Source: Gemmatimonadota bacterium (GTDB lineage: Bacteria > Gemmatimonadota > Gemmatimonadetes > Gemmatimonadales > Gemmatimonadaceae). From it: a stretch of DNA of 17,055 nucleotides. Position 1 is the first letter of the stretch. The number at the start of each line of letters is the position of its first letter. The notes under the pieces are model-generated. The model made no database searches and was not told the DNA's origin. It saw nothing but the letters and a program-made list of their open reading frames with translations. Location: the NCBI GenBank assembly GCA_003222065.1, contig QHUV01000004.1:1-17055 (forward strand). The letters run 5' to 3'. Positions 361 to 17,055 of the stretch are shown here, piece by piece. Position numbers and translations under genes: made by a program.

Positions 361-374
361 CGGTAGGAGCCTGA

Positions 375-403: not shown

Positions 404-484
404 TTCGCAGCGCTGTATCTAAGTCGAGATTTTTCAGCCCTTTAGCCAGCGCGACGTGACGACTCCTGTCGCCGGCGAAGGGCC

Positions 485-1342: not shown

Positions 1343-1382
1343 GGTTGCGCGAGTTAGGTGTGCCGACGAACGAGAGTGGGAG

Positions 1383-1604
1383 TCAATTTCGAGTGCCCCG
1401 CTTCCGATCGAAGATTACACTCCGCCGACACTCTGGACAGATCAGCCATTCACGTTGGCGCGCGTAACCGAGGCCGAACGAGCCTCCGCCGATCGATCGT
1501 GCGGTCATTGCCGCTCCATCACGCGGACACCGCGGCGTCTCGCCAGCCCCAAACGCCTGACGAATGTCCGCCTCCTCCTCAGGTAAGAACTGAGCGCGAT
1601 CCAT
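1383..1604 (-). CDS. Small zinc-ribbon-like protein
   Basis: This is a 73-residue soluble protein with an acidic N-terminus (FLPEEEADIRQAF), a first knuckle C26-PRDG and a second knuckle C56-PEC-59. It looks like a short zinc ribbon, but only three cysteines are visible; Asp29 sits where the fourth ligand would be expected. The function is unknown. The start chosen is ATG at 1604; an in-frame GTG at 1610 adds two residues. The ribosome-binding site appears to come from the heptamer repeat just upstream, whose minus-strand unit TAGGTGC offers AGGTG about 4 nt before the ATG. It lies between the dehydrogenase and the channel-like gene on the same strand, so it may be co-transcribed with either. 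Confidence 0.6.
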   Translation of the reverse strand: MDRAQFLPEEEADIRQAFGAGETPRCPRDGAAMTARSIGGGSFGLGYARQREWLICPECRRSVIFDRKRGTRN

Positions 1605-1639
1605 TAGCACCTAGCACCCAGCACCTAGCACCTCTCACC
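1605..1639 (-). repeat. Heptamer tandem repeat, TAGGTGC-type, five units
   Basis: Five consecutive 7-bp units on the plus strand: TAGCACC, TAGCACC, CAGCACC, TAGCACC and TCTCACC. The first four differ at one position only; the last is degenerate. The array encodes the final residues and the TAG stop (1625-1627) of the upstream dehydrogenase and ends directly at the ATG of the zinc-ribbon gene. Confidence 0.8.
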
Positions 1640-2671: not shown

Positions 2672-2762
2672 AAAATCGGCACCGTTATATTCCGGTTCAA
2701 TTGACCACGCATATTAACCCGCCGGCGAACGGATCGATGGTCGGCGCAGCGCTCCTCAGGCG
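2672..2762. promoter_or_regulatory. Divergent promoter region, dehydrogenase / sucB
   Basis: This 91-bp AT-richer spacer separates the divergent starts. On the minus strand TATAAC (2684-2689) is a plausible -10 for the dehydrogenase, without a good -35. On the plus strand TATATT (2686-2691) and TTGACC (2701-2706) are present but badly spaced for each other. No operator repeat was seen. Confidence 0.35.
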
Positions 2763-4121
2763 ATGACATCAATCAAGGTGCCTCCGCTCGGTGAATCGAT
2801 CGTCGAAGCCACCGTTTCGCGCTGGATGAAAAAGGAAGGCGATCAAGTTTCGCCCGGCGACACGTTGGTCGAGCTGGAGACGGACAAAATCACAGTCGAA
2901 GTTCCGGCGATGAGCCGCGGCGTGCTCACGAAGCGTCTGCACTCCGAGGGCGACGTCGTGAAGGTCGACGACTTACTTGGTGAAATCGACGAGAGCGCGG
3001 CGGCCGCGGCGCCGAAGCGCGAAGCAGCTACGGCCGCTGCCGGTAGCTCGACTCAACGCGCTGCTGGCTCGACGCCGACTCCCGCGCCCGCGGCTCCGCC
3101 CCCGGCCCCGCCTCAGGCCGCGCCGAGCCCGAGCAGCCCTACTCCGGCCGCGGGCGCAGCCAAGGGTGGACCACCAAAGCCAGAAGTTCGCGCGTCGCCG
3201 GCCGCCGAGCGACTGGCCGGCGAACAAAAAGTCGACCTTGCGAGCGTCAGGGGCACCGGCCGCGGTGGTGTCATCAGCAAGACCGACGTCCTGGATCAGG
3301 CGGCCGACGGCGCCGGTCCTCCTGCTCCGGCACGCCCTCCTGCGGCGCAGGCACCAGCGGCCGGCGCGACCGCCGCACCGGCTGGGGCGCCGCCGGCACC
3401 CACGCCCGCGCCGCCGGCGGCCGGTGTACGCGAGACCCGCGAAAAGATGTCGACCCGCCGCAAACGGATCGCCGAACATCTGCTCGAGTCCCAGCACGCT
3501 ACGGCGCACCTAACGACGTTCAACGAGATCGACATGGCCGCCGTCGAGGCCTTGCGGGCCCGCGTCAAGGAGCGGATCGAGAAAGAGCATGGCGTGAAGC
3601 TGTCGATCATGCCTTTCTTCGTGAAGGCGGCGTGCATGGCGTTGAAGTCGTATCCGGTTGTCAACTCGCAGATCGACGGCGACTCGATCGTCTACAAGCA
3701 CTATGTGAACATGGGCATCGCCGTCGCGTCGGACGCGGGACTCGTCGTGCCGAACATCAAGGACGCTGATCGCAAGGCGCTATTGGAAATCGCGCAAGAC
3801 ATTGCGGCGATCGCGAAAAAGGCGCGCGACGGGAAGCTCACAATGGAAGATCTCACGGGCGGCACGTTCACGATTACGAACGGTGGCGTGTTCGGCTCGC
3901 TCGTGTCGACGCCGATCTTGAACTATCCGCAGGTTGGCATCCTGGGGCTGCACAAGATCCAAGAGCGGCCGGTCGCGATCGCCGGCAACGTCGAGATCCG
4001 GCCGATGATGTACGTGGCGTTGTCGTACGACCATCGCGTCATCGATGGGCAACAGGCGGTACTCTATCTGGTCCGTGTGAAGGAGCTGATGGAAGATCCA
4101 GCGACGATGCTCGTCGACTGA
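2763..4121 (+). CDS. sucB: Dihydrolipoyl succinyltransferase, E2 of 2-oxoglutarate dehydrogenase
   Basis: E2 transfers the succinyl group from the lipoyl arm to CoA in the TCA cycle and forms the core of the complex. The 452 residues show one lipoyl domain (1-78) with the lipoyl lysine Lys42 in [10 protein letters not shown]. An Ala/Pro-rich swinging linker follows, then a peripheral-subunit-binding domain (about 141-176: [25 protein letters not shown]) and a second Ala/Pro linker. The catalytic domain (about 223-452) contains [12 protein letters not shown] and the active site DHRVIDG, with His424 and Asp428. [13 protein letters not shown] is typical of succinyl- rather than acetyl-transferases. 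It is somewhat longer than usual (about 400) because of the linkers. Start ATG at 2763; the Shine-Dalgarno is weak. lpdA follows 141 bp downstream. The E1 gene (sucA) is not in this window. Confidence 0.93.
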
Positions 4122-4141
4122 GCCGGAGACTGCGTCGTGAT

Positions 4142-4159
4142 GGTCGTTGCCTAACGACC
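4142..4159 (+). other. Stem-loop after sucB, containing GCCTAACG
   Basis: GGTCGTT (4142-4148) and AACGACC (4153-4159) form a perfect 7-bp stem with a GCCT tetraloop, 20 bp after the sucB stop. There is no T-tract. It may end transcription weakly, protect the mRNA 3' end, or reflect an inverted copy of half of the recurrent octamer. Confidence 0.4.
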
Positions 4160-4262
4160 GACGAGGACGCGCGGCGGACACATCCGCGGCCTTCCGCGTC
4201 TCCTTAGCTTTACGGCGGGTGCGACGGCGTTCGTCGGCCCGCGTACCGGATCGATTCGAAAC

Positions 4263-5714
4263 ATGCCAATTGAAAATTCATCAGCTGACGTCGTCATCAT
4301 CGGCGGCGGACCTGGCGGCTACGTTGCCGCTATTCGTGCGGCCCAACTCGGGTTGGTCACGGTATGCGTCGAGATGGACAAGACGCTCGGCGGCACATGT
4401 GTAAATGTGGGTTGCATCCCCTCCAAGGCGCTATTGACCTCGTCGGAGCATTACGAGTTTGCACGTCAGCACGCGGCGGAGCACGGGATCAGGATCGAGG
4501 ACAAGGGGCTAACGCTCGATCTGGCGACGATGTTGAAGCGGAAGGATGACGTCGTCGCGCAGAACACGCGGGGGATCGAGTTCCTGTTCAAGAAGAACAA
4601 GATCATGTGGGCGAAGGGGAAGGGCTCGTTGCGGCGCACCGAGAAGGGGCTGGAGGTGGCGGTTGCGCCGAGCGCGCCGGCGAGTGGGGGCGCCCCCCCA
4701 CAAGACAGTATCGCTTCGTACGCGGCCAAAAACGTCATCATTGCAACGGGCTCAGTACCAATCGAGCTCCCATTTCTCAAATTCGACGAAGAGCGCATCC
4801 TCTCCAACGTCGGCGCCCTCACCATTCCTCGCGTTCCTCGTCATCTCATCGTCATCGGTGGCGGCGTCATTGGCCTCGAGCTCGGCTCTGTCTGGCGCCG
4901 CCTCGGCGCGAACGTCACCATCGTCGAGCTCATGCCGACGATCCTCCCCGGCATGGACGACGACGTGATCAAGGAGTGCGACCGGGTCTTTCGCCGGCAG
5001 GGCCTCGATCTCCGCACCGGTACGCGCGTCGTCGGCGGCCGCCGCGAAGGTGATCGCCTCCTCGTCGACGTCGAGAAGGACGGCGCGAAGGAGACACTCG
5101 AGGGCGACTACGTCCTCATTGCCATCGGACGCAAGCCGTCGCTCGGCGGCATCGACGCCGCTTCGTTAGGCATCGACGTTGGCCGCCGCGGTGAGATCCT
5201 CGTCGACGATCGCATGAGAACGGGCGCGCCTAACGTCTACGCGATCGGAGACTGCGTGCCCGGGCCAATGCTCGCGCACAAAGCCGAGGAGGAGGGCGTC
5301 GTCGCCGCCGAGTCTATCGCCGGCCAAAACGTCCACATGCACTACAAGTCGATCCCGAACGTCGTCTACACGTGGCCGGAGATCGCCGCCGTCGGCCTCA
5401 CCGAGCGCGAGGTCAAGCAGGACGGCCGCGAGTATCGCGTCGGCCGATTCCCGTTCAGTGCGAACGGTCGCGCGCGGACAATGGGTGAGACCGCCGGCTT
5501 CGTCAAGTTCATCGCTGATGCGCGAACCGATGAGCTGCTCGGTGCGCATCTCGTCGGCCCGAACGTGTCCGAGCTCGTCTCGGAAGTCGTGCTAGGCTTC
5601 GAGTATCGCGCCTCGGCCGATGATCTCGGTATGACCGTGCACGCGCACCCGACTCTCGCCGAATCGACGAAGGAGGCGGCGCTAGCAACTCTCGGCCGCG
5701 CCTTGCATATCTAG
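4263..5714 (+). CDS. lpdA: Dihydrolipoyl dehydrogenase (E3)
   Basis: E3 reoxidises the dihydrolipoyl arm of 2-oxo acid dehydrogenase complexes and passes electrons through FAD to NAD+. The 483 residues show the FAD-binding GGGPGGYVAAIRAAQLG (14-30) and the redox disulfide Cys46/Cys51 in GGTCVNVGCIPSKAL. They also show the NAD-binding GGGVIGLELGSVWRRLG, the second FAD motif NVYAIGDC and the C-terminal His462-Pro-Thr-Leu-Ala-Glu467 catalytic dyad. The length is normal apart from an unusual Ala/Gly/Pro/Ser-rich insertion (about 138-152) before the first ATGS motif. Start ATG at 4263, with poor Shine-Dalgarno. Its place after sucB suggests it serves that complex, though E3 is normally shared with pyruvate dehydrogenase and glycine cleavage. 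Confidence 0.95.
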   Translation: MPIENSSADVVIIGGGPGGYVAAIRAAQLGLVTVCVEMDKTLGGTCVNVGCIPSKALLTSSEHYEFARQHAAEHGIRIEDKGLTLDLATMLKRKDDVVAQNTRGIEFLFKKNKIMWAKGKGSLRRTEKGLEVAVAPSAPASGGAPPQDSIASYAAKNVIIATGSVPIELPFLKFDEERILSNVGALTIPRVPRHLIVIGGGVIGLELGSVWRRLGANVTIVELMPTILPGMDDDVIKECDRVFRRQGLDLRTGTRVVGGRREGDRLLVDVEKDGAKETLEGDYVLIAIGRKPSLGGIDAASLGIDVGRRGEILVDDRMRTGAPNVYAIGDCVPGPMLAHKAEEEGVVAAESIAGQNVHMHYKSIPNVVYTWPEIAAVGLTEREVKQDGREYRVGRFPFSANGRARTMGETAGFVKFIADARTDELLGAHLVGPNVSELVSEVVLGFEYRASADDLGMTVHAHPTLAESTKEAALATLGRALHI

Positions 5715-5735
5715 TCAGGTGTCTCTCAACTCGTG

Positions 5736-5757
5736 ATAGCAGGAGCGCTTCTGCTAT
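5736..5757 (+). terminator. Possible hairpin terminator after lpdA
   Basis: A 9-bp stem (5736-5744 with 5749-5757, one G-U pair) and a GCGC loop begin 22 bp after the lpdA stop. The following sequence (TCATATGATTACT) is AT-rich but has no true T-run, so termination is possible but not certain. Confidence 0.4.
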
Positions 5758-5802
5758 TCATATGATTACTCCCCACTAGCACGACCCTCGCGCGGCAGGT
5801 CA

Positions 5803-6285
5803 ATGACCGGCTATTTCGCCCAGGCGCCGCGGGCGCTGTCGCCCGACGATCACGTGCCGGCGCGCGTGCTGCTCATGGGCGCGCTCGGCGTCACCCCATA
5901 CATCGATCGGGCGATGGAAGTGCTGCAGCTCGCGGAGCGCGGGCATGACCATGAACATCGCGCGCTCGTGATTGCCCGCGACGGCACGGTCGCCGCGCTG
6001 GCGCTTTACGGCGCGGTGGCCGGAGCGCTCGGTGTCAGCAAGCTTCATGCAGCGGTCGTTGCGCCGAGTGTGAGTGTCGCCGACGTTGGCCAACGGCTCC
6101 TGAGCGCGATCTTGGACGAGGCGCGGAGCGAAGGCGCCCGTCTCGTCGTCGCCGAAATGCCCGACGATCCCGCGATCGGGCAGGTGCGCGCGCTCCTCGC
6201 CTCGGTGGGATTCGAGGAAGAAGCGCGCGTGCCCGACTTTTATCGCGCCGGCGTCGCGCTTACGCTACTGCGCCGTGACCTTTGA
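5803..6285 (+). CDS. GNAT-family acetyltransferase
   Basis: This 160-residue protein fits the GNAT fold that transfers acetyl from acetyl-CoA to an amine. The core strand ALVIARDGTVAALALYG (about 48-64) is followed by the CoA-pyrophosphate-loop region VSVADVGQRLLSAILDEARS. That region is a diverged version of the Q/RxxGxG/A motif. The C-terminal signature is VGFEEEARVPDFYRAGVALT followed by LLRRDL, with the tyrosine typical of GNAT enzymes. The substrate cannot be read from sequence. Start ATG at 5803 with a modest CAGG upstream. It converges with the peptidoglycan-binding-domain gene, the two stops lying 12 bp apart. Confidence 0.78.
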   Translation: MTGYFAQAPRALSPDDHVPARVLLMGALGVTPYIDRAMEVLQLAERGHDHEHRALVIARDGTVAALALYGAVAGALGVSKLHAAVVAPSVSVADVGQRLLSAILDEARSEGARLVVAEMPDDPAIGQVRALLASVGFEEEARVPDFYRAGVALTLLRRDL

Positions 6286-6297
6286 GGCATCAGTGGC

Positions 6298-6795
6298 TCA
6301 CGGTCCGCGGGTGGTGTCCTTTTTCGTGCTGGGCCGGCGGCGTGTCGAATCGGCGCGGGTCGAGCGACGCATGGATGTGTCCCCGCGCATTCGATCCATC
6401 CCGCGATTCGTGCGCGACATTTCACTTCCGCGAAGGCTGTCGGATGTCGTGAAGTTCAAGTTCAGCGAACGGAAGAGATCGTTAGGGTTGTTTCCCGTTA
6501 CGCTGTTCTTCTGCCGGGCACAGTTCATCGCTCTCCTCGTTCGCGGGCCCATCACTCCATCGATTGAACCCGGATCACAGTCGTTCTGCTTGAGAGCGGT
6601 CTGAAGCTGGGTGATCTGATCGTGCGTCAGTCCATAGTTTCCTGAAGCGCGGCCGATCGAGCCGGCCGACGTTTGCTGCCGACGAGGTCGCGCGCGCGTA
6701 CTGTCGGCACCGCGCATGCGCGACGAGTCCGTTTGTGCCGCCGCAATCGTCGGAACGATCGCGAGGGCGACCACCGCCATCGCCAGTCTCGTCAT
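6298..6795 (-). CDS. Secreted peptidoglycan-binding-domain protein
   Basis: This 165-residue exported protein starts with a clear Sec signal peptide (about 1-20, cleavage near AIAA-type AAAQ). One PG_binding_1-type repeat at about 55-95 contains THDQITQLQTALKQ, then SIDGVMGPRTRRAMNCAR, the usual three-helix cell-wall binding fold. Cys73 and Cys92 flank the motif and may form a disulfide. The rest is low complexity and rich in Arg, Ser, Thr and Asp (residues 22-50 and 125-165), without a catalytic domain. It may anchor or organise cell wall rather than cleave it. The start at 6795 is well supported by AAGGAGG with 5-nt spacing (GGAGG at 6801-6805). It is downstream of the S9 peptidase, separated by a strong terminator, so it has its own promoter. 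Confidence 0.8.
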   Translation of the reverse strand: MTRLAMAVVALAIVPTIAAAQTDSSRMRGADSTRARPRRQQTSAGSIGRASGNYGLTHDQITQLQTALKQNDCDPGSIDGVMGPRTRRAMNCARQKNSVTGNNPNDLFRSLNLNFTTSDSLRGSEMSRTNRGMDRMRGDTSMRRSTRADSTRRRPSTKKDTTRGP

Positions 6796-6908
6796 TTGTT
6801 CCTCCTTCTTCTCATATGAGCAATACTCGAATCGCAGCGGCGGCGGTGCGCAATCAACGAGCCGAACGAGCAGACCGCCATCGAATCGCGGTTCGACCTC
6901 ACGATCCG

Positions 6909-6947
6909 AAAAAAAGTCACAGTCGTCGCCATGGCGACGACTGTGAC
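6909..6947 (-). terminator. Rho-independent terminator of the S9 peptidase gene
   Basis: Positions 6916-6947 are a perfect 32-bp palindrome (16-bp arms, first half GTCACAGTCGTCGCCA, centre CCATGG). On the minus strand it is followed directly by seven T residues (6909-6915). It lies 26 bp past the stop of the peptidase gene at 6974. This is the strongest intrinsic terminator in the window and isolates the downstream gene. Confidence 0.88.
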
Positions 6948-6973
6948 CTCCTTCGATCGGTTATGAGTACTCT

Positions 6974-9019
6974 CTATTTCGTCTTTGTCTGACCAGCTTG
7001 AACGGTAGTCTGCGTCTTGATGTACTTGTCGTACCACGCGAGATAACGTTCGATGCGATCCTTCCGGTAGCTCGGTAGCGTGATGCCGTGGAACTGGCCG
7101 GGATAGATTACGAGCTCCGTCGGAATGCCGAGCGAGCGCAGCGCCTGGTACATCTGCTCGCCGCCGATAATGGGAACGTTGAAGTCGGCCGATCCGCCCA
7201 TGAAGAGCGCCGGCGTCTTGATGCGATCGGCATGGAAGAAGGGATACGAGATCTTGATCCACAGGTCCTGGCTCTTCCAAGGCGGTCCGATCTCCTGATT
7301 GTATTGCGTGATGTACTGGTCCGTTCCATACATCGAGAGCTGCAACGCGCTTCCCGCGCCGGCGACCGCCGCCTTGAAGCGCGGTGTCGTCGCGATGGTG
7401 TAGTCGGTGAGAATGCCACCGTAGCTCCAGCCGCCAATCCCAAGTCGGTCGCCATCGGCGACGCCGGAGCGAATGGCCTCGTCGACGGCGCCGATGAGAT
7501 CCATCACTTCCTTGTCGCCCCAATCGGCGAAGATCGCCTTTTGGTACGCCGAGCCCCGACCGCTCGACCCGCGGTAATTCACCGACAGCACGGCGTAACC
7601 ATTGGCGGCAAAAAACTCCCGGTCGAAGCTGAAACTGTAGCTGTCCTGTCCGTTCGGGCCGCCGTGAATGTACAGGATCAGCGGCAACTTGCCTGACGAG
7701 GCGTTCGCTGGCCTAACGAGAACACCGTGTACCTCGGTCCCGTCCTTGCTCTTCGACGAGAACCCTTCGGTGGTACCGAGTTGGAGCTGGGCAAAGACAG
7801 AATCGTTCTGGTGCGATAACTGCCGCAGCGCGCCATTCTCCCAAGCATACACTTCGCCAGAACGATCCGGCGTCGAGGTCAGCACGACGACCTTCCCTGC
7901 GGCGCTCGTCGAATACGACGACACGACGCGCTTCCCCGAGATCAATCGCTCGACAGCGCCATCGGCGACGCGAACGCGCGCGAGCTGCTGCTCGCGATCG
8001 TCGGACAGGAGCACATAGACTGACTTGCCGTCGGCGCTGAACTGCGCGTTGGACAGCGGGCGATCGAGGGCTTCGGTGACGACGTGTGCTGGAGCGCTGC
8101 CGTCGCTTGGGACAATGGCGAGCTTGCTCAGACTGTAGGCTTGATACTTCGGCTCGTCACCGCGGAAGAACGCGAGCCACTTTCCGTCCGGGCTCCACGC
8201 CGGTCGACCACCGTCCGGCCCGATGAAGTTGGTGAGTCGCTTGGCGGTTGCACCGGCGCGTGCTTCGATGACGAACACGTCATCATCGCGCGAGCGCTCC
8301 GGCTCGGCGACCGGTCCGCGCACGAATGCGATCATGCGTCCGTCGGGCGACCAGCTCGGCGTGCCGTCGTCATCGAGCCCGGAGGTCAGCGTCTCCGTCT
8401 TCTTCGTCTCCACATCGAACAGCGACAAATGACTCCGCTTGCTGCCGAGGTAGCCGGCGACGTCGCGCTTGAAGTTGTAGCGATCGATGACGATCGGCTT
8501 GGGCGTCTTGTGCTCGGCTGTATCGTTTTTCAAAACCGAGTCCGTCTCCTCGTCGACGACGAGCACGAGCTTCTTGGAGTCCGGCGACCAAGCGAACTCG
8601 GACACACCACCTCGTAGTTGTGTCACTCGCTGTGCTTCGCCGCCACGCCGATCGAGCAGCCAGATCTGTGCGCCCTTGCCTTCCTGCCGGCCAGACAAGA
8701 ACGCGAGGTACCGCCCGTCCGGGCTCCAGCGCGGCGCGCTCTCACTCTCCGGGCTCGACGTGAGCCGCAGCGTCGTCGAGCCGTCCCAGCTCGTCATCCA
8801 GATATCGTTGTCGGACTTGTCTTTCGCCGAATCGATTGCCGTTACGGTGTACGCCACCCATCCGCCATCGGGCGATATCTGCGGGTCGCGAACGTCCTTG
8901 AGATGGTAGAGGTCGCCGCTCCGAATGGCACGCTTCGCTTGGCCATTGGCTGGCGAAGGAGAGAGTTGGAGCAGGGCGCAGGTTGCCAACGATGCTAGCG
9001 CAGCGGAGATGCGGCGCAT
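6974..9019 (-). CDS. Secreted S9-family prolyl oligopeptidase / dipeptidyl aminopeptidase
   Basis: This is a secreted serine peptidase that likely trims dipeptides or acyl-amino acids from peptides. The 681 residues begin with a signal peptide (MRRISAALASLATCALLQLS, cleavage near residue 26). A seven-bladed-propeller region (about 40-400) follows with repeated WSPDG motifs (for example WSPDGRYLAFLSGR, WSPDSKKL, WSPDGRMIAFVRG, WSPDGKWLAFFRG). The C-terminal alpha/beta-hydrolase domain carries the triad Ser532 (GGWSYGG), Asp612 (GSADFN) and His644 (GQFHGI). The length is normal for S9C. An in-frame start at 9127 would add 36 residues before the signal peptide; 9019 is chosen because GGAGG (9027-9031) precedes it by 7 nt. 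It is transcribed divergently from the beta-lactamase-like gene. Confidence 0.92.
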   Translation of the reverse strand: MRRISAALASLATCALLQLSPSPANGQAKRAIRSGDLYHLKDVRDPQISPDGGWVAYTVTAIDSAKDKSDNDIWMTSWDGSTTLRLTSSPESESAPRWSPDGRYLAFLSGRQEGKGAQIWLLDRRGGEAQRVTQLRGGVSEFAWSPDSKKLVLVVDEETDSVLKNDTAEHKTPKPIVIDRYNFKRDVAGYLGSKRSHLSLFDVETKKTETLTSGLDDDGTPSWSPDGRMIAFVRGPVAEPERSRDDDVFVIEARAGATAKRLTNFIGPDGGRPAWSPDGKWLAFFRGDEPKYQAYSLSKLAIVPSDGSAPAHVVTEALDRPLSNAQFSADGKSVYVLLSDDREQQLARVRVADGAVERLISGKRVVSSYSTSAAGKVVVLTSTPDRSGEVYAWENGALRQLSHQNDSVFAQLQLGTTEGFSSKSKDGTEVHGVLVRPANASSGKLPLILYIHGGPNGQDSYSFSFDREFFAANGYAVLSVNYRGSSGRGSAYQKAIFADWGDKEVMDLIGAVDEAIRSGVADGDRLGIGGWSYGGILTDYTIATTPRFKAAVAGAGSALQLSMYGTDQYITQYNQEIGPPWKSQDLWIKISYPFFHADRIKTPALFMGGSADFNVPIIGGEQMYQALRSLGIPTELVIYPGQFHGITLPSYRKDRIERYLAWYDKYIKTQTTVQAGQTKTK

Positions 9020-9184
9020 GACGAGTCCTCCAGGAGGAGTTGAGGCCTGGTGAGAGCGAATTTCCGAAGCGGCGCTAAATATCGGACGGTGCACGTTGAG
9101 TAGCGAGGGGAACTTGTAGCACACCAACAGCGATCTTTACTGTTCACCTCGCCGGCACCGCCTTTGCGACTGCATTGACAGGCT

Positions 9185-10084
9185 ATGACCTTTCCGTCCG
9201 CGTTGGACCGGGACCGAGCCCCGTCGCTCCCGCAGAATCTCGACGCGCTCCGCCAGCGCATCGACGCCGCCGCTCGAAAGTCCGACGCGCGCGCAATTGC
9301 CGTGGCGCTCCACGACGCGGAATCCGGAGCCGAGCTGCATTACGACGCGGACCGCTGGTTCCACGGCGCGAGCACGATCAAGATCGCCATCCTTCTCGCG
9401 GTGTACGGCGAGATCGATCGCGGGCGGTTGGCTCCCCAGTCTCGTCTGCACGTGCGCAATCGATTCCTCAGCGCGTACGACGGCTCGCCGTTCCGCATCC
9501 TCGCGGACCGCGACGCGGATTCCGACGTGCATGCGTCGATCGGCAAGACAATGCGCGTGAGCGAGCTGGCGCTGCACATGATCGCCATGAGCAGCAACCT
9601 CGCGACAAATCTGCTCCTTGATCTCATCGGACTGGAGACGGTGCAGCGGACGATCGAGCGATTCGGCCTAACGGGCCTCGATATCCGCCGCGGCGTCGAA
9701 GACGAGAAGGCGTTCGAGCACGACATCGTGAATCGAGTGACGGCGAACGGACTCGTTGGGCTGCTTCGTCTCATTGCCGAAGAGCGAGCGTACTCACCCG
9801 AGCTCTCACGCGAGATGCTCGACATTCTGCATCAGCAGGAGTTCAAGAAAGGCATACCAGCGCGGCTTCCGCGCGACGTACGCGTCGCTCATAAGACGGG
9901 CGATATCTCCAGCGTCGCGCACGACGCCGGAGTTGTGTATGCGCCGGGGCGCAAGCCGTACGTCGTCGCCATTCTCACCGAATGGGCTGCCGACGCGGGA
10001 AGCCGTTCGCCGACGATCGCGTCGATCTCCCACGCTGTTTACGACTACTTGCGTGGCACCGGCCAAGAAGGTTCCGATGCCTGA
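9185..10084 (+). CDS. Class A beta-lactamase-like serine hydrolase (cytoplasmic)
   Basis: This 299-residue protein has the penicillin-recognising serine-hydrolase fold (Beta-lactamase2 type). Ser63-x-x-Lys66 (GASTIKIAI) is the nucleophile motif, Ser136-Ser137-Asn138 replaces the usual SDN, and Lys237-Thr-Gly239 (AHKTGDIS) is the third motif. The segment RRGVEDEKAFEHD stands in the omega-loop region; the classical E-x-x-L-N is not evident. There is no signal peptide: the N-terminus is MTFPSALDRDRAPSLPQ and an in-frame TGA lies 9 nt upstream at 9176. Real beta-lactamases are exported, so a cytoplasmic amidase or peptidase role is more likely than resistance. It is first in a three-gene operon; the next ATG overlaps its stop by 8 bases. 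Confidence 0.85.
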   Translation: MTFPSALDRDRAPSLPQNLDALRQRIDAAARKSDARAIAVALHDAESGAELHYDADRWFHGASTIKIAILLAVYGEIDRGRLAPQSRLHVRNRFLSAYDGSPFRILADRDADSDVHASIGKTMRVSELALHMIAMSSNLATNLLLDLIGLETVQRTIERFGLTGLDIRRGVEDEKAFEHDIVNRVTANGLVGLLRLIAEERAYSPELSREMLDILHQQEFKKGIPARLPRDVRVAHKTGDISSVAHDAGVVYAPGRKPYVVAILTEWAADAGSRSPTIASISHAVYDYLRGTGQEGSDA

Positions 10085-10709
10085 GTTGCGTGCCGACTCG
10101 ATGCGCATCGTCGATGGATATCGGCTCGAGAAGCCGAAGCGCGACGCGTTGATGCCTGGCGGCGCGCTGCGCGACCGCGAGGGACGCACGCGCCAGCTGC
10201 CGCGCTACTTCTACGAAGTGGAATCGTGGGACGCGGCGCTCGAGCAGGAACTTGCGCCGCACTTCAACATGTGGGAGTTCATTCAGACTGACGTTCGCGA
10301 GGCGACGCCACTCCGTTTTTTCCCGCGCTATGTGCCATGTGCCGTAACGCTCACGGCGGCGATGCTCGAGCGATTCCGCGAGGCGGTCGGTGAGCCAGTA
10401 CGGATCTCCGCCAACGGCGGCTATCGCTCGCCGCAGCACGAGCTGACGAGCCACGCCTCGACGCATTGCTGGGCGTCGGCCGTGAACATCTACCGCATTG
10501 GCGACGAGTACCTCGATTCGCGCGACCGCATCGGGCGCTATGCGGACGTCGCGCGCGACGCGCTACCCGGCGCCTGGATCCGCCCGGTCGGCGAGGATCG
10601 CGGCTTTGCTGACGATCACCTGCACTTGGATTTCGGCTACGTCATCGCCGTGCCGCACGATGCGCCGGGTGATCCATTCAACCCGAAGCTCGAGGGCGAC
10701 CCGCTGTAG
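10077..10709 (+). CDS. M15-like D-Ala-D-Ala carboxypeptidase homologue
   Basis: This 210-residue protein matches the Peptidase_M15_3 fold, zinc enzymes that cleave D-amino-acid peptide bonds. Visible motifs are ISANGGYRSPQHE, then S128-T-H130-C-W-A-S-A-V-N137 (family pattern SxHxxGxAxD) and D180-H181-L-H183-L-D (the HxH motif). His130 and His183 keep the zinc ligands, but the third ligand Asp is Asn137, so activity may be altered or lost. There is no signal peptide. Start ATG at 10077 is supported by AAGAAGG 6 nt upstream and the 8-bp overlap with the preceding stop, a translational-coupling arrangement. The next gene begins 6 bp after its stop, so the three are almost surely one transcript. 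Confidence 0.75.
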   Translation: MPELRADSMRIVDGYRLEKPKRDALMPGGALRDREGRTRQLPRYFYEVESWDAALEQELAPHFNMWEFIQTDVREATPLRFFPRYVPCAVTLTAAMLERFREAVGEPVRISANGGYRSPQHELTSHASTHCWASAVNIYRIGDEYLDSRDRIGRYADVARDALPGAWIRPVGEDRGFADDHLHLDFGYVIAVPHDAPGDPFNPKLEGDPL

Positions 10710-10715
10710 CGGGCC

Positions 10716-11996
10716 GTGACGGTCGTGCGGGCGCGGAAGGAGAAGCGGAAACGTGAGCGCCAGACGCGCCTAACGGCGACGGCCAATGCGGGGCGCGCGA
10801 TGACGCGCGCGACGTCATCCTTGGCGGCGATCGGCATCGAGGCGGAGTTCGTCGTCGTCATCGACGGCGTGCCGGTGCGGCCGGAGGATATTTTCGGCTC
10901 GCCACGGCGCATCGTCCGCGGCCCGCTCCTGCATCGAACCGGACGCTCCTATCACTTGCCGACCGGCAGCGCGGTGTACTTCGACACAGGCGTGATCGAG
11001 CTCGCGACGCCGATGATCGAGCTCGAGCGCGGTTGCGCGGCGCGCGCCGGCCGCTCGCTCTGGGAGAGCATTCTGTTCCTGCGGCGCGAGCTCGATGTCT
11101 GGCAGGAGCGATTCGGTCGCGACGTGCGACTGGTCGGGTTTAGCACTCACTACAACGTCTCGTTTACTCCACCCACCGGCGCGCTGGCCTCGAATCGCAC
11201 GGTGGAACAACTCGCATTGCTGCTGACCTATATCCTGCCGGCGCCCGTCATGCTCCTCGCGGCCAATCGGCAATCGACCGGAATCGGCGTGCGCCCGCGC
11301 CGTAATCGTGTCGAGGTTACGGCCGACTTCACCCCGGACGCCGCGTTGATGATCGCCACGGCGACACTCGTCGTCGGCGTCGTGCGCGAGGTCATGAGTT
11401 GGCCACGCTATGATCTGTCGATCCTCGGCGAATCGGAGCAGCGCGACCTACCGGTCTTTCGCGATTTCGCGCCTGTACCGCATAGCTCGCGAAAGGGATG
11501 GGTCGCTCGGCATACCTGCTTTCCACGGAACCCCTTCACCGCTCGCGTTGACGAGGATCAGTGGAACGTGCGTGACGGCGAGCCGCTCTCGCTCCGGGAG
11601 ATTGCCGGTCGCATCACAAGGCGATTCTGGCCAGCGATTCGGCGGTACGCCGACCCGTTCACGCTCCGTCTGATTGGCGCCGTCATGGCGGGCCGGACAC
11701 CGTCGCTTCTCGAGCTGGCCGACCGGCCGCCGGCGTACGAAAGCGTGGGGCGACTTTGCGCCTGGGAGGAGCTTTTCCCGGAACACGAGCTGCCGCGATC
11801 GCGCTATGAGCGAGTGCTCATTCGCGCCATCCACGGCGACCGGCTGCACCTCGGCGGCGGCGAATGGTATACGCCGACAGGGATGCGCGGCTGGTCACAT
11901 GTCGTGTTTCGCCGCGACCGCGACCGCAGCAAGCATGTGTTCTCGCTCGACTACCTGCTGCGCCATCTGGAGGATTGGGAAGCTGGCAGCCGTTAG
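10716..11996 (+). CDS. Putative glutamine-synthetase-fold carboxylate-amine ligase (amidoligase-like)
   Basis: I recognise no characterised homologue, but the pattern fits the GCS2/amidoligase group, which joins a carboxylate to an amine using ATP. An N-terminal strand Gly40-Ile-Glu42-Ala-Glu44 (IGIEAEF) gives the G-x-E-x-E metal/ATP motif. A second acidic region is VYFDTGVIELATPMIEL. A central FSTHYNVSF contains His145-x-Asn147-x-Ser149, and NRVEVTADFTPD (Glu200, Asp204) follows. The C-terminal half is rich in Arg and Trp. It is 426 residues from GTG at 10716, or 398 from ATG at 10800; the first adds a basic stretch (RARKEKRKRERQTR). GTG is preferred because it sits 6 bp after the upstream stop. 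There is no signal peptide. It converges with the epimerase gene, the stops 5 bp apart. Confidence 0.55.
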   Translation: MTVVRARKEKRKRERQTRLTATANAGRAMTRATSSLAAIGIEAEFVVVIDGVPVRPEDIFGSPRRIVRGPLLHRTGRSYHLPTGSAVYFDTGVIELATPMIELERGCAARAGRSLWESILFLRRELDVWQERFGRDVRLVGFSTHYNVSFTPPTGALASNRTVEQLALLLTYILPAPVMLLAANRQSTGIGVRPRRNRVEVTADFTPDAALMIATATLVVGVVREVMSWPRYDLSILGESEQRDLPVFRDFAPVPHSSRKGWVARHTCFPRNPFTARVDEDQWNVRDGEPLSLREIAGRITRRFWPAIRRYADPFTLRLIGAVMAGRTPSLLELADRPPAYESVGRLCAWEELFPEHELPRSRYERVLIRAIHGDRLHLGGGEWYTPTGMRGWSHVVFRRDRDRSKHVFSLDYLLRHLEDWEAGSR

Positions 11997-12001
11997 GCGT
12001 G

Positions 12002-13114
12002 TTACTGACGGACGGCAGCGTGCCAGGCGGCCAACGCCTCTGCTTCCTTCTCTGGCGTGATCGCGAATCGTGGCTTGGCGCGGCGCGCCTCCGGCACCGA
12101 CGGCCACCAGGCGAGCGTGTCACGCACCGTCGCGGCGAGGGGCCGGAATGTCAAACCCGATGCGACCGCCTTGTCATTGCGGATCGACATCATGCCGTCG
12201 TCGTTACCCTCGAGGCGCGCCCACGGAATCGCCTCGTCGATTTGGTGCGCGGCGAGGAACGCATAGTCGTCGATCCAGGTGAACGTCGCGTCGGATCCGA
12301 TGGCTGCCTTCGCCTGCTCGAGGAACGCGGGCATCGTTAGGCGCTCCTTTGGCCCCACCGCGTTGTACACGCCAGTCACCTGCTGCTCGAGTAGCCGCAC
12401 CATCCACTCGGATAGGTCGCGCACGTCGATGAGCTGCACCGGATCGTCGCGGCGTCCTGGCGCCAGCACCTCACCACCCTTGGCCAAGCGAACCGGCCAG
12501 TACGGAAAGCGATCAGTGGTGTCGCCGGGACCGACGATGTACGTCGGGCGCACGACGATGGCGCGACCGCCGAACGCCTCCTGAACCTCGTGCTCGCAAC
12601 GCGCCTTGGCGACGCCGTACGTCTCGGAGCCGTCTTTCGGATCCGCAACCTCGAGATGCGGCGCCACCGACTCGTCGAGACCACGCTTGCGATATGGATA
12701 GTAGACGCCGGTCGACGACGTGAAGAGGTACTGCCTCGTCGAATCCTTCAACAGCTGAGCAGACTGCCGCACCCATTCCGGATTCGTCGCTGAGTCGTCG
12801 ACGACCGCGTCCCACCGTTTGCCGATGAGCGCGCCGAGCTGGCCGTTGCGATCCCCGATGAGACGCACGACTTCGTTAGGCAGGTCCGCCTGGCGGCGGC
12901 CGCGCGTAAAGATCGTCACCCGATGGCCGCGCGCGACCGCGTATCGTACGAGATGCGGACCGATGAAGCCGGTGCCGCCGAATACGAGCAGGTCGATCGG
13001 CGCCCGCGCCACGGTGACGCCGGCGGCGGCATCGGCGAACGCCGTGGCGCTGCGACTGAGCAGCGCGCCGCCCAGAACTATACTGCCTTTGAGAAAGTCG
13101 CGTCGGTTCGTCAT
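12002..13114 (-). CDS. Tat-exported NAD-dependent epimerase/dehydratase-like protein
   Basis: This 370-residue extended-SDR protein has a twin-arginine signal (TNRRDFLKGSIVLGGALLSR, residues 2-21). The Rossmann motif GGTGFIG lies near residue 46, FTSSTGVYYPY gives the Ser region, and the catalytic Tyr-x-x-x-Lys is in TYGVAKARCE. The C-terminal half resembles sugar-epimerase or isoflavone-reductase-like proteins (VRPTYIVGPGD, QLIDVRDLSEWMVRLL). The substrate is unknown. Export by Tat implies folding with its NAD(P) in the cytoplasm before translocation. The start at 13114 is preferred over 13150 because GGAGG (13123-13127) lies 8 nt upstream and the Tat motif begins directly after it. Confidence 0.85.
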   Translation of the reverse strand: MTNRRDFLKGSIVLGGALLSRSATAFADAAAGVTVARAPIDLLVFGGTGFIGPHLVRYAVARGHRVTIFTRGRRQADLPNEVVRLIGDRNGQLGALIGKRWDAVVDDSATNPEWVRQSAQLLKDSTRQYLFTSSTGVYYPYRKRGLDESVAPHLEVADPKDGSETYGVAKARCEHEVQEAFGGRAIVVRPTYIVGPGDTTDRFPYWPVRLAKGGEVLAPGRRDDPVQLIDVRDLSEWMVRLLEQQVTGVYNAVGPKERLTMPAFLEQAKAAIGSDATFTWIDDYAFLAAHQIDEAIPWARLEGNDDGMMSIRNDKAVASGLTFRPLAATVRDTLAWWPSVPEARRAKPRFAITPEKEAEALAAWHAAVRQ

Positions 13115-13154
13115 GTTCGCATCCTCCGATGGCGAGCGAGGGCGAAACATGTTA

Positions 13155-13171
13155 GGCGCGAGTCACGCGCC
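13155..13171 (-). other. Short GC hairpin upstream of the epimerase gene
   Basis: GGCGCG (13155-13160) and CGCGCC (13166-13171) form a 6-bp stem with a 5-nt loop in the 133-bp gap between the DUF3185 gene and the epimerase gene. No T-run follows on either strand. It may be a weak terminator or chance. Confidence 0.25.
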
Positions 13172-13247
13172 CCACCACCCACCCAACCAATTCCTTACAG
13201 AGCTGACCGCGACGCCTTGAGCCCTATTGTCGCGTCTCCCGATTTCA

Positions 13248-13469
13248 TCAACTCGCTCGTCGCACCGCCACGATCAGCGCTACGCCAGCAAGGATCGCCA
13301 CGCCGCCGACGATAGGCGAAATGGGAATCGTGCGCTCTTCCCGCGTTGTCACCTGCAGTGGTCCGACGCGAGCCACCTCGCGTCGCTGGCTGTAGCTGAT
13401 GCCGCCGTACGCGATACCGACAAGACCGAGGACGACGAGAATGATTCCGACGAGAGTGCCCACTTTCAT
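13248..13469 (-). CDS. Two-TM DUF3185-type membrane protein
   Basis: This 73-residue inner-membrane protein has two hydrophobic segments (MKVGTLVGIILVVLGLVGIA, 1-20, and SPIVGGVAILAGVALIVAV, about 51-69). They are separated by a polar loop, YSQRREVARVGPLQVTTREE followed by RTIP. The pattern YGG-SYS-R-E-x-x-x-x-GP-x-x-x-T-x-x-x-x-x-IP is the one I associate with DUF3185. The function is unknown. An upstream start at 13598 would add 43 non-conserved residues before the first TM segment; 13469 is preferred, with GAGG about 9 nt upstream. It is transcribed divergently from the DinB-like gene and in the same direction as the epimerase gene. Confidence 0.72.
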   Translation of the reverse strand: MKVGTLVGIILVVLGLVGIAYGGISYSQRREVARVGPLQVTTREERTIPISPIVGGVAILAGVALIVAVRRAS

Positions 13470-13731
13470 GGTCGATACCTCTACGAGGATGTTCGCGGCG
13501 CGCCAATGGGCGACCACGAGACGCTGCACGACTAAACAATATGGTGGTTGGGCGGCGTTCGCTCTGGCGGAACGCGACGGGAAACATACTGGCGCCAAGC
13601 CAGGCCGTATCTTGCGGGGGCAAGGCTACGGCGCCGCACGGTAGAGTGGTCCCTCCGCACTACGAGGACGTATTTCGCGAGTGAAGATTTTAAGTCAGCA
13701 ACAGCTTGGCTCACCCTGTCCGGTCATCATT
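13470..13731. promoter_or_regulatory. Divergent intergenic region, DUF3185 / DinB-like
   Basis: These 262 bp lie between two divergent starts and must hold both promoters. I see no confident -35/-10 pair; TATTGT (minus strand, near 13540) is the only AT-rich hexamer of note. Small frames through it have no conserved features. Confidence 0.3.
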
Positions 13732-14253
13732 ATGCGCTCACTTCTCGCCGCTACCCTCGCTCTCTCGATGCTCGCGAGTGCCGCTCGCGCGCAAACCAAG
13801 CAGCAGCTCGTCGATGACTGGGAGCGGCAACGCACCAATGTCCTCGCCTACATCGACGCAATGCCCGACTCGGCAATGGCGTTTCATCCGACACCCGGCG
13901 TCCGCGATTTTGCGCAACAGATCGTGCACTTCGTGGCGACTAATTTGGAAGTCGCGGCGATGACGTTGAAGGGAGCCAAGGAAGCACCGTTCACCCTCGA
14001 CACGACCCAGCTCCACCAGAAGGCCGCCCTGCGCGACTACACGGATCGCGTGTACGGCTATCTCCTTGATGCCCTGAAGAGTGCGACGCCATCACAGCTC
14101 CTCAAGCAGTCGTCAGTGTACAATCTCCCAGCACAGTCGGCGACGCGCTGGCTCGATCTGAGTTATGAGCACGCTGTGTGGACGTTAGGCCAAACCGTGC
14201 CATATCTGCGGCTGAATGGCGTCACGCCCCCCGCATATAAGCAGCCGTTGTAG
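13732..14253 (+). CDS. Exported DinB-superfamily protein
   Basis: This is a 173-residue DinB-like four-helix-bundle protein with a Sec signal peptide (MRSLLAATLALSMLASAARA, 1-20). DinB signatures are FHPTPGVRDFAQQIVHFVAT (the conserved His of the first metal-binding helix) and SYEHAVWTLGQTVPYLRLNG followed by VTPPAYK (the second His and the usual C-terminal end). DinB proteins are metal-dependent, often thiol-linked enzymes of mostly unknown substrate; the exported form is common in some soil bacteria. A longer frame starts at GTG 13681 and adds 17 residues before the signal peptide; ATG at 13732 is preferred. Its stop converges with the SGNH hydrolase end at 14303. Confidence 0.8.
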   Translation: MRSLLAATLALSMLASAARAQTKQQLVDDWERQRTNVLAYIDAMPDSAMAFHPTPGVRDFAQQIVHFVATNLEVAAMTLKGAKEAPFTLDTTQLHQKAALRDYTDRVYGYLLDALKSATPSQLLKQSSVYNLPAQSATRWLDLSYEHAVWTLGQTVPYLRLNGVTPPAYKQPL

Positions 14254-14302
14254 CGCAGGTGGTGAACCCCAGACGACGCGGAGCGTCCACTGGATTCGAT
14301 TC

Positions 14303-14892
14303 TCAGGCTCCCAAAGCACGTAGGGCGATAGGCAGGATGACCGTGGCCCAATCGGCGTACATCGCGGCTGATGGATGGAGTCCGTCCGCGGCGAGCAAAG
14401 TGCGGTCGTGCGCCGCTCGCCGCGAAACCGTCGTCACGTCCACGAACGCGGCGCCCGCCTGACGAGCCGTACCGTGCGCAGCTGCGTTGAACTCGTCGAT
14501 CTCGGCACCAATCGCCTTCCGTCCGCGTGGATCCCTCGCTGCGAATGGCGTCATACCCCAATCCGGAATCGAGATCGCGACGACACGCTGCGCCATCCCA
14601 CCAGCGAAACCTATGGCGCACGACAGTAAAACAGTAAAGCCGTCGCGAAACGCGCCCGAGCCGTGCCCGCGATACTGATCGTTGACCCCGATCAGCAACG
14701 AGACAAGGTCGAAGTCGCGGCGCGGCGCTGGCGATACCCCGTCGACAGCGGCGAGCAGCTCGGACGTTGTCCAGCCGGTGCGGGCAATGATCTGCGGCTC
14801 GCCGAGCGCCATCCCGGCCGAGCGCGCCACCGCGACGAGCTGGGCCGGCCATCGCTCCGTCGCGCTGACGCCCTCGCCGATTGTGTAGGAAT
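14303..14892 (-). pseudogene. SGNH/GDSL hydrolase lacking its start (frame offset)
   Basis: The frame encodes an almost complete SGNH esterase/lipase: SYTIGEGVSATERWPAQLVA at the N-terminus, LIGVNDQYRG (the N-containing block) and DGLHPSAAMYADW with the C-terminal Asp/His pair. The nucleophile block should read GDSY. Here the frame gives RHSY because one base is missing between 14892 and 14893; adding a G restores GDSYTIGEG. With that base the frame runs into the upstream gene, not to its own ATG. The only start inside the frame is GTG at 14830, which would drop the nucleophile Ser (14888-14890). So the enzyme cannot be made intact unless fused, frameshifted, or unless the sequence has an indel here. 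Confidence 0.75.
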
Positions 14893-15921
14893 GCCGAAGA
14901 AGCTGCGGACCATCACACTGCGGCGGTCCCGGGGCAGGAGCTTCACATTCTCCGCGAATTGCGGAAAGCCGCCGTCCCTGATGAGATATTGCTCAACGTT
15001 CGAGATGTAAAGGGCCGACACCTTCTCGCCACGCTCGGCGACGAGTTGCGCGATGGCCGCCAGTGCATGCTCACCGGCCGCGTTGCCGACAACGGGCACG
15101 ACGAGGTCGCGGCCCTCGAGCCCTTTCACGTACTGGAAGGCCTCCTCGGATGCGAGGAAATTCGCCTGCCGCCCCGACCTGTCTTTCTCGAGGAGCAGCT
15201 GGCGGTAGGTCGGATGGTATGGCCGCGGCGCCCGCCCGATGCTCGAGTACCGGAGGTCGAGGGAATCGCGCACGAAAGCGTCGCGAATCCGGGCAATCGT
15301 CTCCAGGTCGAGCGTCGACAACGGAATGCCGAATCGCCTAACGCGCTGGCTGATCGCTGACTGCACCGAATCCGCGAGGTCGCCGTCGGTGTGTATGGCG
15401 TCGATGTACTCTACGAGGTCCTGGATCGACTTCGAGCCCCAGTGGTCGACATCGCGCGGGACGGGCTTTCCGAACAGAAAGCAGAGGTACTCGACCCTGT
15501 TGCGCGACATCGCAAAAAGCGACTTGAAGAGAAGGTGCTCGAGGAGGTTGTCGCGACGGATGTCGATCATGAACGCGATGTCCGGCCGGATCATCGCGAT
15601 GTACGAGAAATTCTGATCGGGGCCGACGCCGATGTACGCTCCGCCCTGGACCTTCAGCCGTCGCATGCCGTCGAGTACGTGCAGATAGGACGTCTCATTG
15701 GAGATGAGATTGTCGGAGTCGAAATAGCCGCCCGGCTCCGACAAGCGCTGAACGAGGCGCGCGAACGCCGAGTCGGCCGGCGTTGGCGAGAGGGCGAGCG
15801 GCGAGGCGTAGGCCGCTCGTGTCGACGGTCGGGTGGCATCGCCGATCGCCAGCGATCCGGTGAGGATCGCCGCTGCAATCGCGGCGAGCAGCCACGGCAT
15901 CGACCGGAATCTGGGACTCAT
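14692..15921 (-). CDS. Exported protein of unknown function, C-terminus disrupted
   Basis: The gene starts at ATG 15921 with GGAGG (15928-15932) 6 nt upstream; a start at 15963 only adds residues before the signal. A hydrophobic N-terminal segment (about 9-26) is a signal peptide or anchor. The conserved-looking body (about 50-343) includes GGYFDSDNLISNETSYLHVL, GGAYIGVGPDQNFSYIAMIR and PDIAFMIDIRRDNLLEHLLF. Later it has VSALYISNVEQYLIRDGGFP and LLPRDRRSVMVRSFFG. It resembles the LIC_10091-like proteins of unknown function (family recalled, not searched), and the layout suggests a methyltransferase-like Rossmann fold. After Gly343 (codon 14893-14895) the frame runs out of register into the SGNH gene; the last 66 residues (Arg/Ser-rich) are read-through, not native. 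Confidence 0.65.
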   Translation of the reverse strand: MSPRFRSMPWLLAAIAAAILTGSLAIGDATRPSTRAAYASPLALSPTPADSAFARLVQRLSEPGGYFDSDNLISNETSYLHVLDGMRRLKVQGGAYIGVGPDQNFSYIAMIRPDIAFMIDIRRDNLLEHLLFKSLFAMSRNRVEYLCFLFGKPVPRDVDHWGSKSIQDLVEYIDAIHTDGDLADSVQSAISQRVRRFGIPLSTLDLETIARIRDAFVRDSLDLRYSSIGRAPRPYHPTYRQLLLEKDRSGRQANFLASEEAFQYVKGLEGRDLVVPVVGNAAGEHALAAIAQLVAERGEKVSALYISNVEQYLIRDGGFPQFAENVKLLPRDRRSVMVRSFFGIPTQSARASARRSDGRPSSSRWRARPGWRSASRRSLPAPAGQRPSCSPLSTGYRQRRAATSTLSRC

Positions 15922-15972
15922 CGACGACCTCCGCTGAGCCGAAATTACTGAGCGTGCTGGCATCTCTGCCAG

Positions 15973-16845
15973 TCATCGGCGCGCGGCGATCGAGTGTCGC
16001 GCCCGCCCCTGGCTCTTGCTCTCTCGCAATAGCTCCGCGAGTCGCAGCGCGTCGTACGGTGCATGGACCTTGGCGTCATTGTCGAAGTAGACGTACGCGT
16101 CACGGCCGCTTCGACCGCGCCAGCGGCGAATGCGCGCTGCCCAGTCATCGAGCTCGGAATCGGTATAACCGCTTGCGTAGAGCTCGGTCGAGCCATGCAG
16201 TCGCGCGTAGATGAAGTCCGCCGTCAATTCCTCCGCGTACCCGAACTTCCCTGCCGTATCGGCGAAGACGAGCGCGCAATGGTTGGCGCGCAGTATGTCG
16301 TAAAATTCCTCGCAGAAATACGATGGATGCCGCACCTCGAACGCGTGTCGGTAGCGGATGCGCCGTCCGTCGACCGCCTCGAGCAGCGCGCCTTGCTTGA
16401 GTCGGTGGTCGTGATGGCGCGCGACGTCCTCGGCGGCGAGAGAATCCCGCGGAAGCATGCGCATGAAGCGGTCGAGCCGCTCGGCCTCGAAACCGTACGT
16501 CGCTGGCAGCTGCCACAAGAACGGCCCGATCTTCGCCCCGAGCGCCAGGAGGCCGCTCGCGAAGAAGTTCCCGAGCGCGCGCTCGCAGTTGCGCAGCTTC
16601 AGATTGTGTGTGATGAACCGGCCGCCTTTGATCGCGAACACGAAACCGCGATCGGGCACCTCCGTAGCCCAACGCGCGAATATGCTCGGTGACTTGAGAC
16701 TGTAGAACGTCCCGTTCAACTCGATGGAGTTGAAGCACCGACTCGCATATTCCAGCCAACGCGCTTTCGTGAGTTGCGCGGGGTAAAACGCACCGCGCCA
16801 GCGCGGATAGTCGTAGCCGCTGATGCCGACGTATGATCGGCGCAG
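15973..16845 (-). CDS. DUF72 family protein (YecE-like), non-standard start
   Basis: DUF72 proteins are TIM-barrel-like and of unproven function. The N-terminal block RRSYVGISGYDYPRWRGAFY is followed by FNSIELNGTFYSL, FAIKGGRFITH, PFLWQLPATYGF, FEVRHPSYF and the C-terminal DAYVYFDNDAKVHAPYDALR. All family blocks are present. The conserved N-terminus lies upstream of the first TTG (16719), so that start is too short. Between the in-frame TGA (16867-16869) and the VGISGY block there is no ATG, GTG or TTG. CTG at 16843-16845, preceded by GGGGAC at about 8 nt, is the best candidate and gives 290 residues. The preceding gene ends 17 bp upstream, so translation may be coupled. Confidence 0.75.
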   Translation of the reverse strand: MRRSYVGISGYDYPRWRGAFYPAQLTKARWLEYASRCFNSIELNGTFYSLKSPSIFARWATEVPDRGFVFAIKGGRFITHNLKLRNCERALGNFFASGLLALGAKIGPFLWQLPATYGFEAERLDRFMRMLPRDSLAAEDVARHHDHRLKQGALLEAVDGRRIRYRHAFEVRHPSYFCEEFYDILRANHCALVFADTAGKFGYAEELTADFIYARLHGSTELYASGYTDSELDDWAARIRRWRGRSGRDAYVYFDNDAKVHAPYDALRLAELLRESKSQGRARHSIAARR

Positions 16846-16862
16846 GTTTCGTCCCCGTGCGT

Positions 16863-17055
16863 CTATTCAGGCCGCGGCGCGTGAGATGTCGTTTGCGACA
16901 TCACGAGCCTGAGCTGGGTGAGAAACGCGGCCGGTCCGGCGTTGTCGGGGAGGGCGTGCAGCGCGCGAAGGACGTCTTCCTCGCGCACGGCGAGGCCGGC
17001 GCTGATCGTGTTGGGATCGACGCCCACGCGTTCGAACTCCTTCAGCAGCTGCGCG
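16863..17055 (-). CDS. Unidentified protein, C-terminal 63 residues (runs off window)
   Basis: An open minus-strand frame enters at the window edge and ends at TAG (16863-16865). The 63 residues (AQLLKEFERVGVDPNTISAG, then LAVREEDVLRALHALPDNAG, ending LRLVMSQTTSHAPRPE) look helical and soluble. I recognise no family. It precedes the DUF72 gene by 17 bp and is probably in the same operon. Confidence 0.5.
   Translation of the reverse strand, partial: AQLLKEFERVGVDPNTISAGLAVREEDVLRALHALPDNAGPAAFLTQLRLVMSQTTSHAPRPE

Follow-up and report, generated by a model that had tools for sequence, protein, structure and literature searches.

A 17,055-nt stretch of a Gemmatimonadaceae genome (contig QHUV01000004.1 of assembly GCA_003222065.1, positions 1 to 17,055; hereafter the window) carries 11 exact copies of the non-palindromic octamer GCCTAACG. 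The octamer is a real, genome-wide signal that acts at the level of the DNA. By analogy with known uptake words, we regard it as about an even call that GCCTAACG is an orientation-free recognition word that selection or molecular drive maintains, and most likely a self tag of the uptake-signal type.

Genome-wide over-representation

Within the window, 6 copies lie on the plus strand and 5 on the minus strand, whereas 200 dinucleotide shuffles yield a mean of 0.39 copies and a largest count of 3, and an order-2 Markov model predicts 0.27. A first-pass annotation, made from the letters of the window, had listed 11 copies on both strands and estimated that fewer than one would be expected at 60–65% GC; the counts agree, and the measured GC content is 63.7%. 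The same annotation had proposed genome-wide counts as a check, and these extend the enrichment well beyond the window: the assembly (G000; 736 contigs, 3.73 Mb, 82% complete) contains 2,065 copies (986 + 1,079), or 1 per 1.8 kb, versus 226 (114 + 112) of the reversed word.

In pooled samples of three genera, GCCTAACG is the rank 1 8-mer at Markov order 2, with 323 copies observed versus 8.7 expected in the window genus (535 kb), 312 versus 6.5 in G018 (520 kb), which is probably Gemmatirosa kalamazoonensis KBS708, and 179 versus 7.8 in G032 (440 kb). Pooled word-poor relatives of like GC hold 2 copies in 435 kb, and we consider such relatives a better control than high-order Markov models. 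A separate set of high-GC word-poor relatives (136 kb, two integron neighbourhoods included) holds 17 copies of GCCTAACG and 10 of the one-mismatch word ACCTAACG; 37 loci from Pseudomonadota (695 kb) hold 7 copies, versus 41 of the reversed word.

Constraint on the DNA rather than the protein

Nine of the 11 window copies lie in genes, one is intergenic and one supplies a stop codon. The genic copies span all four reading contexts that avoid a stop (CTA-ACG, TTA-GGC, GTT-AGG and CCT-AAC), making CTA three times, TTA twice, AGG twice and CCT-AAC twice. The earlier statement that seven of the nine create a CTA, TTA or AGG codon is thus correct codon by codon, and its corollary, that selection acts on the DNA, is supported by the use of all four contexts and by the concentration of rare codons in GCCTAACG. 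TTA codons sit in CG-TTA-GGC in 106 of 137 cases in G018, 20 of 62 in G000 and 54 of 195 in its congener G001, versus 184 of 6396, 20 of 1219 and 63 of 5396 for control CTC codons in the same context; these counts come from sampled stretches and a simple gene caller, with repeats kept in, the G018 figure included. Densities inside and outside called genes, again with repeats kept in, are 0.75 and 0.70 per kb in G000, 0.55 and 0.68 in G001, and 0.49 and 1.23 in G018.

The copies are also conserved beyond the level of their surroundings. At aligned places, 6 of 10 window copies are kept in G001 and 5 of 10 in G002 (the eleventh, at 4149, admits no alignment and was left out), compared with baselines over all 8-mers of 16.2% and 17.6–17.9% (P = 0.002 and 0.02, respectively). 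The two tests are non-independent, as both genomes share genus g1 with the window genome. Of the nine non-conserved comparisons (five in G002, four in G001), four involve a single base and five involve at least two; in G001, three of the four are one base off.

Words one mismatch away from GCCTAACG are enriched as well, relative to the pooled word-poor relatives, a comparison set distinct from the high-GC one. Genus g1 has 107 copies per Mb of ACCTAACG and 97 of GCATAACG, versus 2.3 and 4.6, respectively; GCCTAACA reaches 64 per Mb in G018 and 123 in G032, versus 6.9, and stands at 14.7 per Mb (two copies) in the high-GC word-poor set. The enriched near-miss word differs between g1 and G018 or G032, and the tolerated position is therefore lineage-dependent. 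In a GC-matched comparison of g1 with the pooled word-poor relatives, no one-mismatch word was clearly depleted. The pattern resembles, by analogy, the footprint of uptake words, whose over-representation falls with mismatch load according to the part of PMC1939737 that describes it.

Distribution among relatives

Among 36 Gemmatimonadaceae genomes, the window genome included, 12 from 10 genera are rich in GCCTAACG (709–4,469 copies) and 24 are poor (4–50). Five of the rich genomes with intermediate counts (G007, G013, G027, G030 and G035) were sampled over 20–40 kb each, and the G007 and G027 samples contain 2 copies each. In a draw of 395 genomes from the phylum, high counts occur in the same order only, the maximum elsewhere being 67 copies per genome. 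Within the order, a second family, f2, includes genus g47, with 181–779 copies in all six genomes, g60 with 361 and g56 with 172; in a third family, f3, genome G041 has 168.

A ComEC tree of 38 genomes, from which the short rows G006 and G031 were omitted, rejects a single clade of the 12 rich family members (approximately unbiased test, p = 0.00013). To account for all 13 rich rows by parsimony takes 8 changes, 3 of them forced by well-supported branches; of the 35 inner branches, 16 are without resolution. The rich genomes are scattered on this tree, and the identical word has therefore been gained or lost more than once.

Two genomes deserve separate mention. G243, filed in the rich genus g21, has 3 copies, whereas three searched genus mates have 2,745–3,754; its GC content is 0.70 (11 kb) versus 0.61 for G022, and with so few copies it may therefore be misplaced in g21. 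In the Gemmatimonadaceae bin P6-2 (locus L062), words containing GCTAGC are enriched (CAGCTAGC, 11 versus 0.61 in 18 kb), which may reflect a further lineage word or a repeat of local extent.

Arrangement along replicons

Across the arms of the G018 chromosome as defined by skew (21 stretches of 20 kb), the strand split is 123:119, giving no replication-strand bias. Copies are spaced slightly more evenly than Poisson, with variance-to-mean ratios of 0.75, 0.82 and 0.81 in 5-kb bins of three samples. Tandem direct pairs no more than 20 bp apart number 12 in the G018 sample, versus about 1 expected; direct pairs and triplets 9–16 bp apart occur in the G018 stretches L124, L135, L137, L143 and L145.

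Extrachromosomal replicons carry the word too. In G032 (samples of 100, 100, 60, 40, 40 and 40 kb), density is 0.40 per kb on the 2.99-Mb replicon, 0.36, 0.37 and 0.33 on those of 284, 209 and 95 kb, and 0.50 on two larger ones; plasmid 1 of KBS708 has 33 copies in 50 kb. Partly overlapping loci around insertion sequences (IS) in G032, 85.7 kb in all, contain 26 copies, or 0.30 per kb versus a genome mean of about 0.43. A search of 10 rich genomes for Phage_portal returned no match.

A putative uptake word

Described classes of dense genomic words include Chi, uptake words and highly iterated palindromes (HIP), as set out in part of PMC4390886, and among these the anatomy of GCCTAACG fits uptake words best. 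Like the DNA uptake sequences (DUS) of Neisseriaceae and the uptake signal sequences (USS) of Pasteurellaceae, it is a short non-palindromic word present on both strands in thousands of copies, within genes and between them, free of replication-strand bias and accompanied by enriched one-mismatch forms; for the two known uptake words, PMC1939737 reports copy numbers of 1471 and 1965, a lack of orientation bias and a footprint of mismatched forms. It differs from them in phylum and in its letters.

As with those words, GCCTAACG coexists with genes for ComEC, DprA and the type IV pilus. Searches of 60 relatives recovered ComEC in 56, including all 12 rich family members; DprA in 54, including 11 of the 12, the exception being G002 (79% complete); and a secretin resembling PilQ in 58, with no match above the model cut-off. 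The window genome has all three. PilO adjoins the secretin gene in G000, and PilM, PilO and the secretin are neighbours in G018.

The process would be DNA uptake, and the reader may be pilin-like, an analogy we draw because ComP is the DUS receptor and ComN is predicted to serve USS, as indicated in part of PMC12616744. Within the competence machinery, a DNA-binding protein at the cell surface or in the periplasm, by analogy a pilin, would prefer fragments that bear GCCTAACG, and recombination of the imported DNA would keep restoring and multiplying the word in the chromosome and resident plasmids. Both the uptake role and the receptor are putative. In the titles and abstract beginnings of literature on Gemmatimonas, Gemmatimonadetes and Gemmatimonadota, and of more general literature, we found no report of such a word in this phylum; among 329 papers that contain its letters, none of the 20 titles listed deals with one.

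Several observations weigh against an uptake function. Convergent neighbours within 60 bp make up only 3 of 808 unique copies (0 of 323, 1 of 312 and 2 of 173 in the three samples), so that GCCTAACG almost lacks the inverted pairing that, according to PMC3630211, abounds in every genome with a DUS dialect. The same source states that the dialects of Neisseriaceae follow phylogeny, unlike the identical word shared here by non-sister genera. The small IS-rich plasmids of G032 are about as dense in GCCTAACG as the chromosome. Word-poor relatives have ComEC, DprA and the secretin as often as rich ones do: the competence genes that the first-pass annotation had suggested looking for are present, and they fail to discriminate rich from poor genomes. 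Finally, GCCTAACG is not exceptional at Markov order 6 in any of the three genus samples, because its 7-mers are hardly found outside it. The annotation's preferred interpretation, an uptake sequence, nevertheless stays the best reading, shorn of its argument from a terminator. It had placed one copy in a stem-loop after sucB, as in uptake-type terminators, but the fold of the 55-nt stretch around that copy (4149) is at the level of its shuffles (z = −0.52), and the hairpin is not followed by a run of T. On this fold test and the rarity of hairpin pairs, we reject a terminator role.

Competing explanations

An unlikely but possible alternative to an uptake word is a HIP-like element, the non-palindromic counterpart of the cyanobacterial octamer HIP1, created or maintained by a methyltransferase and biased mismatch repair, or used to mark self DNA against a nuclease. 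Both words are octamers of high density, the patchy gain and loss of GCCTAACG among relatives recalls HIP1 as portrayed in part of PMC4390886, every sampled G032 replicon is marked, and both the clustering of tolerated one-mismatch forms at certain positions and the single-base differences of three of the four copies not conserved in G001 would suit it. However, HIP1, which is tied to methyltransferases, and the other HIP words are palindromic according to the same part of that source, whereas GCCTAACG is not; one-step conversion does not predict differences at two or more bases in five of nine comparisons; and no near-miss word is clearly depleted in the GC-matched comparison. The Chi-like site raised by the first-pass annotation, which would stop a RecBCD, AddAB or AdnAB nuclease and start recombination, seems less probable still and is disfavoured by our searches. 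Chi is likewise a non-palindromic octamer, GCCTAACG is dense in chromosome and plasmids, and the nuclease family PDDEXK_1, present in 25 of 60 relatives, exceeds the Pfam cut-off in 5 of 12 rich members (G007, G013, G018, G027 and G029). Yet only the G029 match has E < 1e-10, the other four lying between 2.8e-4 and 1.8e-6; PDDEXK_1 is commoner in poor members (15 of 24); RecC was found in 6 of 60 genomes, G027 being the single rich one; counting RecC and strong AddB-type matches together, only 2 of 12 rich members have such a nuclease; and, unlike Chi, GCCTAACG lacks strand bias in G018, the one genome tested. Seven of the 12 (G000, G001, G002, G022, G030, G032 and G035) have neither RecC nor PDDEXK_1 in family-profile searches, which can miss divergent nuclease forms and did not cover the helicase subunits AddA and RecB; for many of the rich genomes, a Chi role through a known nuclease is thus unlikely.

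A further candidate comes from integrons, since GCCTAACG equals the box CGTTAGGC of attC sites (which we take to be R′, its partner being R″) in arrays of the same order. G036 has a large integron of about 24 attC sites in 20 kb (L168, 1–20000), where 21 of 24 R′ boxes read CGTTAGGC and the boxes in most listed sites are paired, 83–129 bp start to start. In the word-poor G017, 12 of 26 octamers lie within 20 kb round its integrase, where attC sites carry CGTTAGGC, and integrase genes are common among relatives. We nonetheless think it improbable that an integrase or its cassettes spread the word. Copies in rich genomes are single and lie inside ordinary genes, unlike the paired boxes of attC; convergent core pairs within 150 bp number 0, 1, 4, 0 and 0 in samples of G000, G001, G018, G022 and G032, versus 2.6, 5.5, 7.6, 0.8 and 0.6 expected; and an integrase passes the cut-off in 9 of the 12 rich members and in 16 of the 24 poor ones, with no association (Fisher 0.71), which discards it as a discriminator. 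The pairing test thus rejects an integron origin of the genomic copies, even though attC sites of G036 and G017 share the box. The identity of the two words is perhaps a coincidence lacking an explanation. That an uptake address matches the attC core for cause, so that cassettes shed by relatives carry the word, transformation is coupled to cassette capture and the reader spreads horizontally between Gemmatimonadaceae lineages, strikes us as a long shot. Around an integron integrase of G022 (L227, 1–20000), 28 octamers occur in 20 kb, versus about 17 expected from the genome mean.

Two remaining explanations retain hardly any credence. A polar chromosome signal akin to FtsK-orienting polar sequences (KOPS) or architecture-imparting sequences (AIMS) would account for the high density, but the even strand counts across the arms of G018 contradict it in that genome, and the G032 plasmids are almost as densely marked as the chromosome; the KOPS-like option of the first-pass annotation falls with it. 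An artefact of codon usage or composition could draw on the ranks of GCCTAACG at Markov order 4 (1, 29 and 11 in the window-genus, G018 and G032 samples, respectively) and on order 6, where the word does not stand out. High orders absorb the word, however, since its sub-words are almost confined to it; word-poor relatives of like GC nearly lack it; and the creation of rare codons in four contexts already contradicts an artefact.

The window copies and their genes

A Pfam search of the window genes recovered a 2-oxoacid dehydrogenase acyltransferase (sucB-like), an lpdA-like gene, an S9 peptidase, a beta-lactamase family member, an epimerase, DinB_2 and DUF7790. The best hit of the window LpdA, at 85% identity, comes from a Gemmatimonas sp. 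bin, with Gemmatimonadota or Gemmatimonadaceae bins next, and on this basis we assign the genome to Gemmatimonadaceae. The intergenic copy (4149–4156, +), with its chance-level hairpin, lies between the sucB-like gene (2763–4121) and lpdA (4263–5714). lpdA itself contains two copies, at 5164–5171 (−; TCG-TTA-GGC), where G001 reads CGCTCGGT and G002 CGCTCGGC, and at 5228–5235 (+; GCG-CCT-AAC-G), which is kept in both. The copy in the S9 peptidase gene (6974–9127, −) at 7711–7718 (+; C-GTT-AGG-C) is also kept in both, and that in the beta-lactamase-family gene (9185–10084, +) at 9666–9673 (+; GC-CTA-ACG) in G001.

The open reading frame (ORF) at 10716–11996 has no Pfam match, and its earlier label of amidoligase-like is without confirmation. 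It contains a copy at 10768–10775 (+; GC-CTA-ACG), kept in G001 and G002, and its end is overlapped by another at 11991–11998 (−), kept in G002, which gives its TAG stop. The epimerase-like gene (12002–13150, −) has copies at 12335–12342 (−; GC-CTA-ACG), kept in G002, and 12874–12881 (−; CTG-CCT-AAC-G), kept in G001. The last two lie in the DinB-like gene (13681–14253, +) at 14183–14190 (−; ACG-TTA-GGC), kept in G001, and in the DUF7790 gene (14692–15963, −) at 15336–15343 (+; C-GTT-AGG-C), kept in neither. The window also carries, at 1605–1641, a dispersed short repeat of CACCTAGCAC-type units, found at 84–100% identity in at least 29 places in G002 and at least one in G001, with part of the candidates scored.

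Implications

Uptake words in the literature cited here belong to two proteobacterial families. If GCCTAACG is an uptake word, Gemmatimonadota would have a word of the same class, and their interleaved rich and poor genera would offer an independent natural on/off comparison that bears on the rise and loss of sequence-specific transformation. If it is instead linked to methylation or to a nuclease, it would parallel HIP1 without being a palindrome. G018, the probable G. kalamazoonensis KBS708, appears to represent a cultured word-rich species, which would make a direct test possible.

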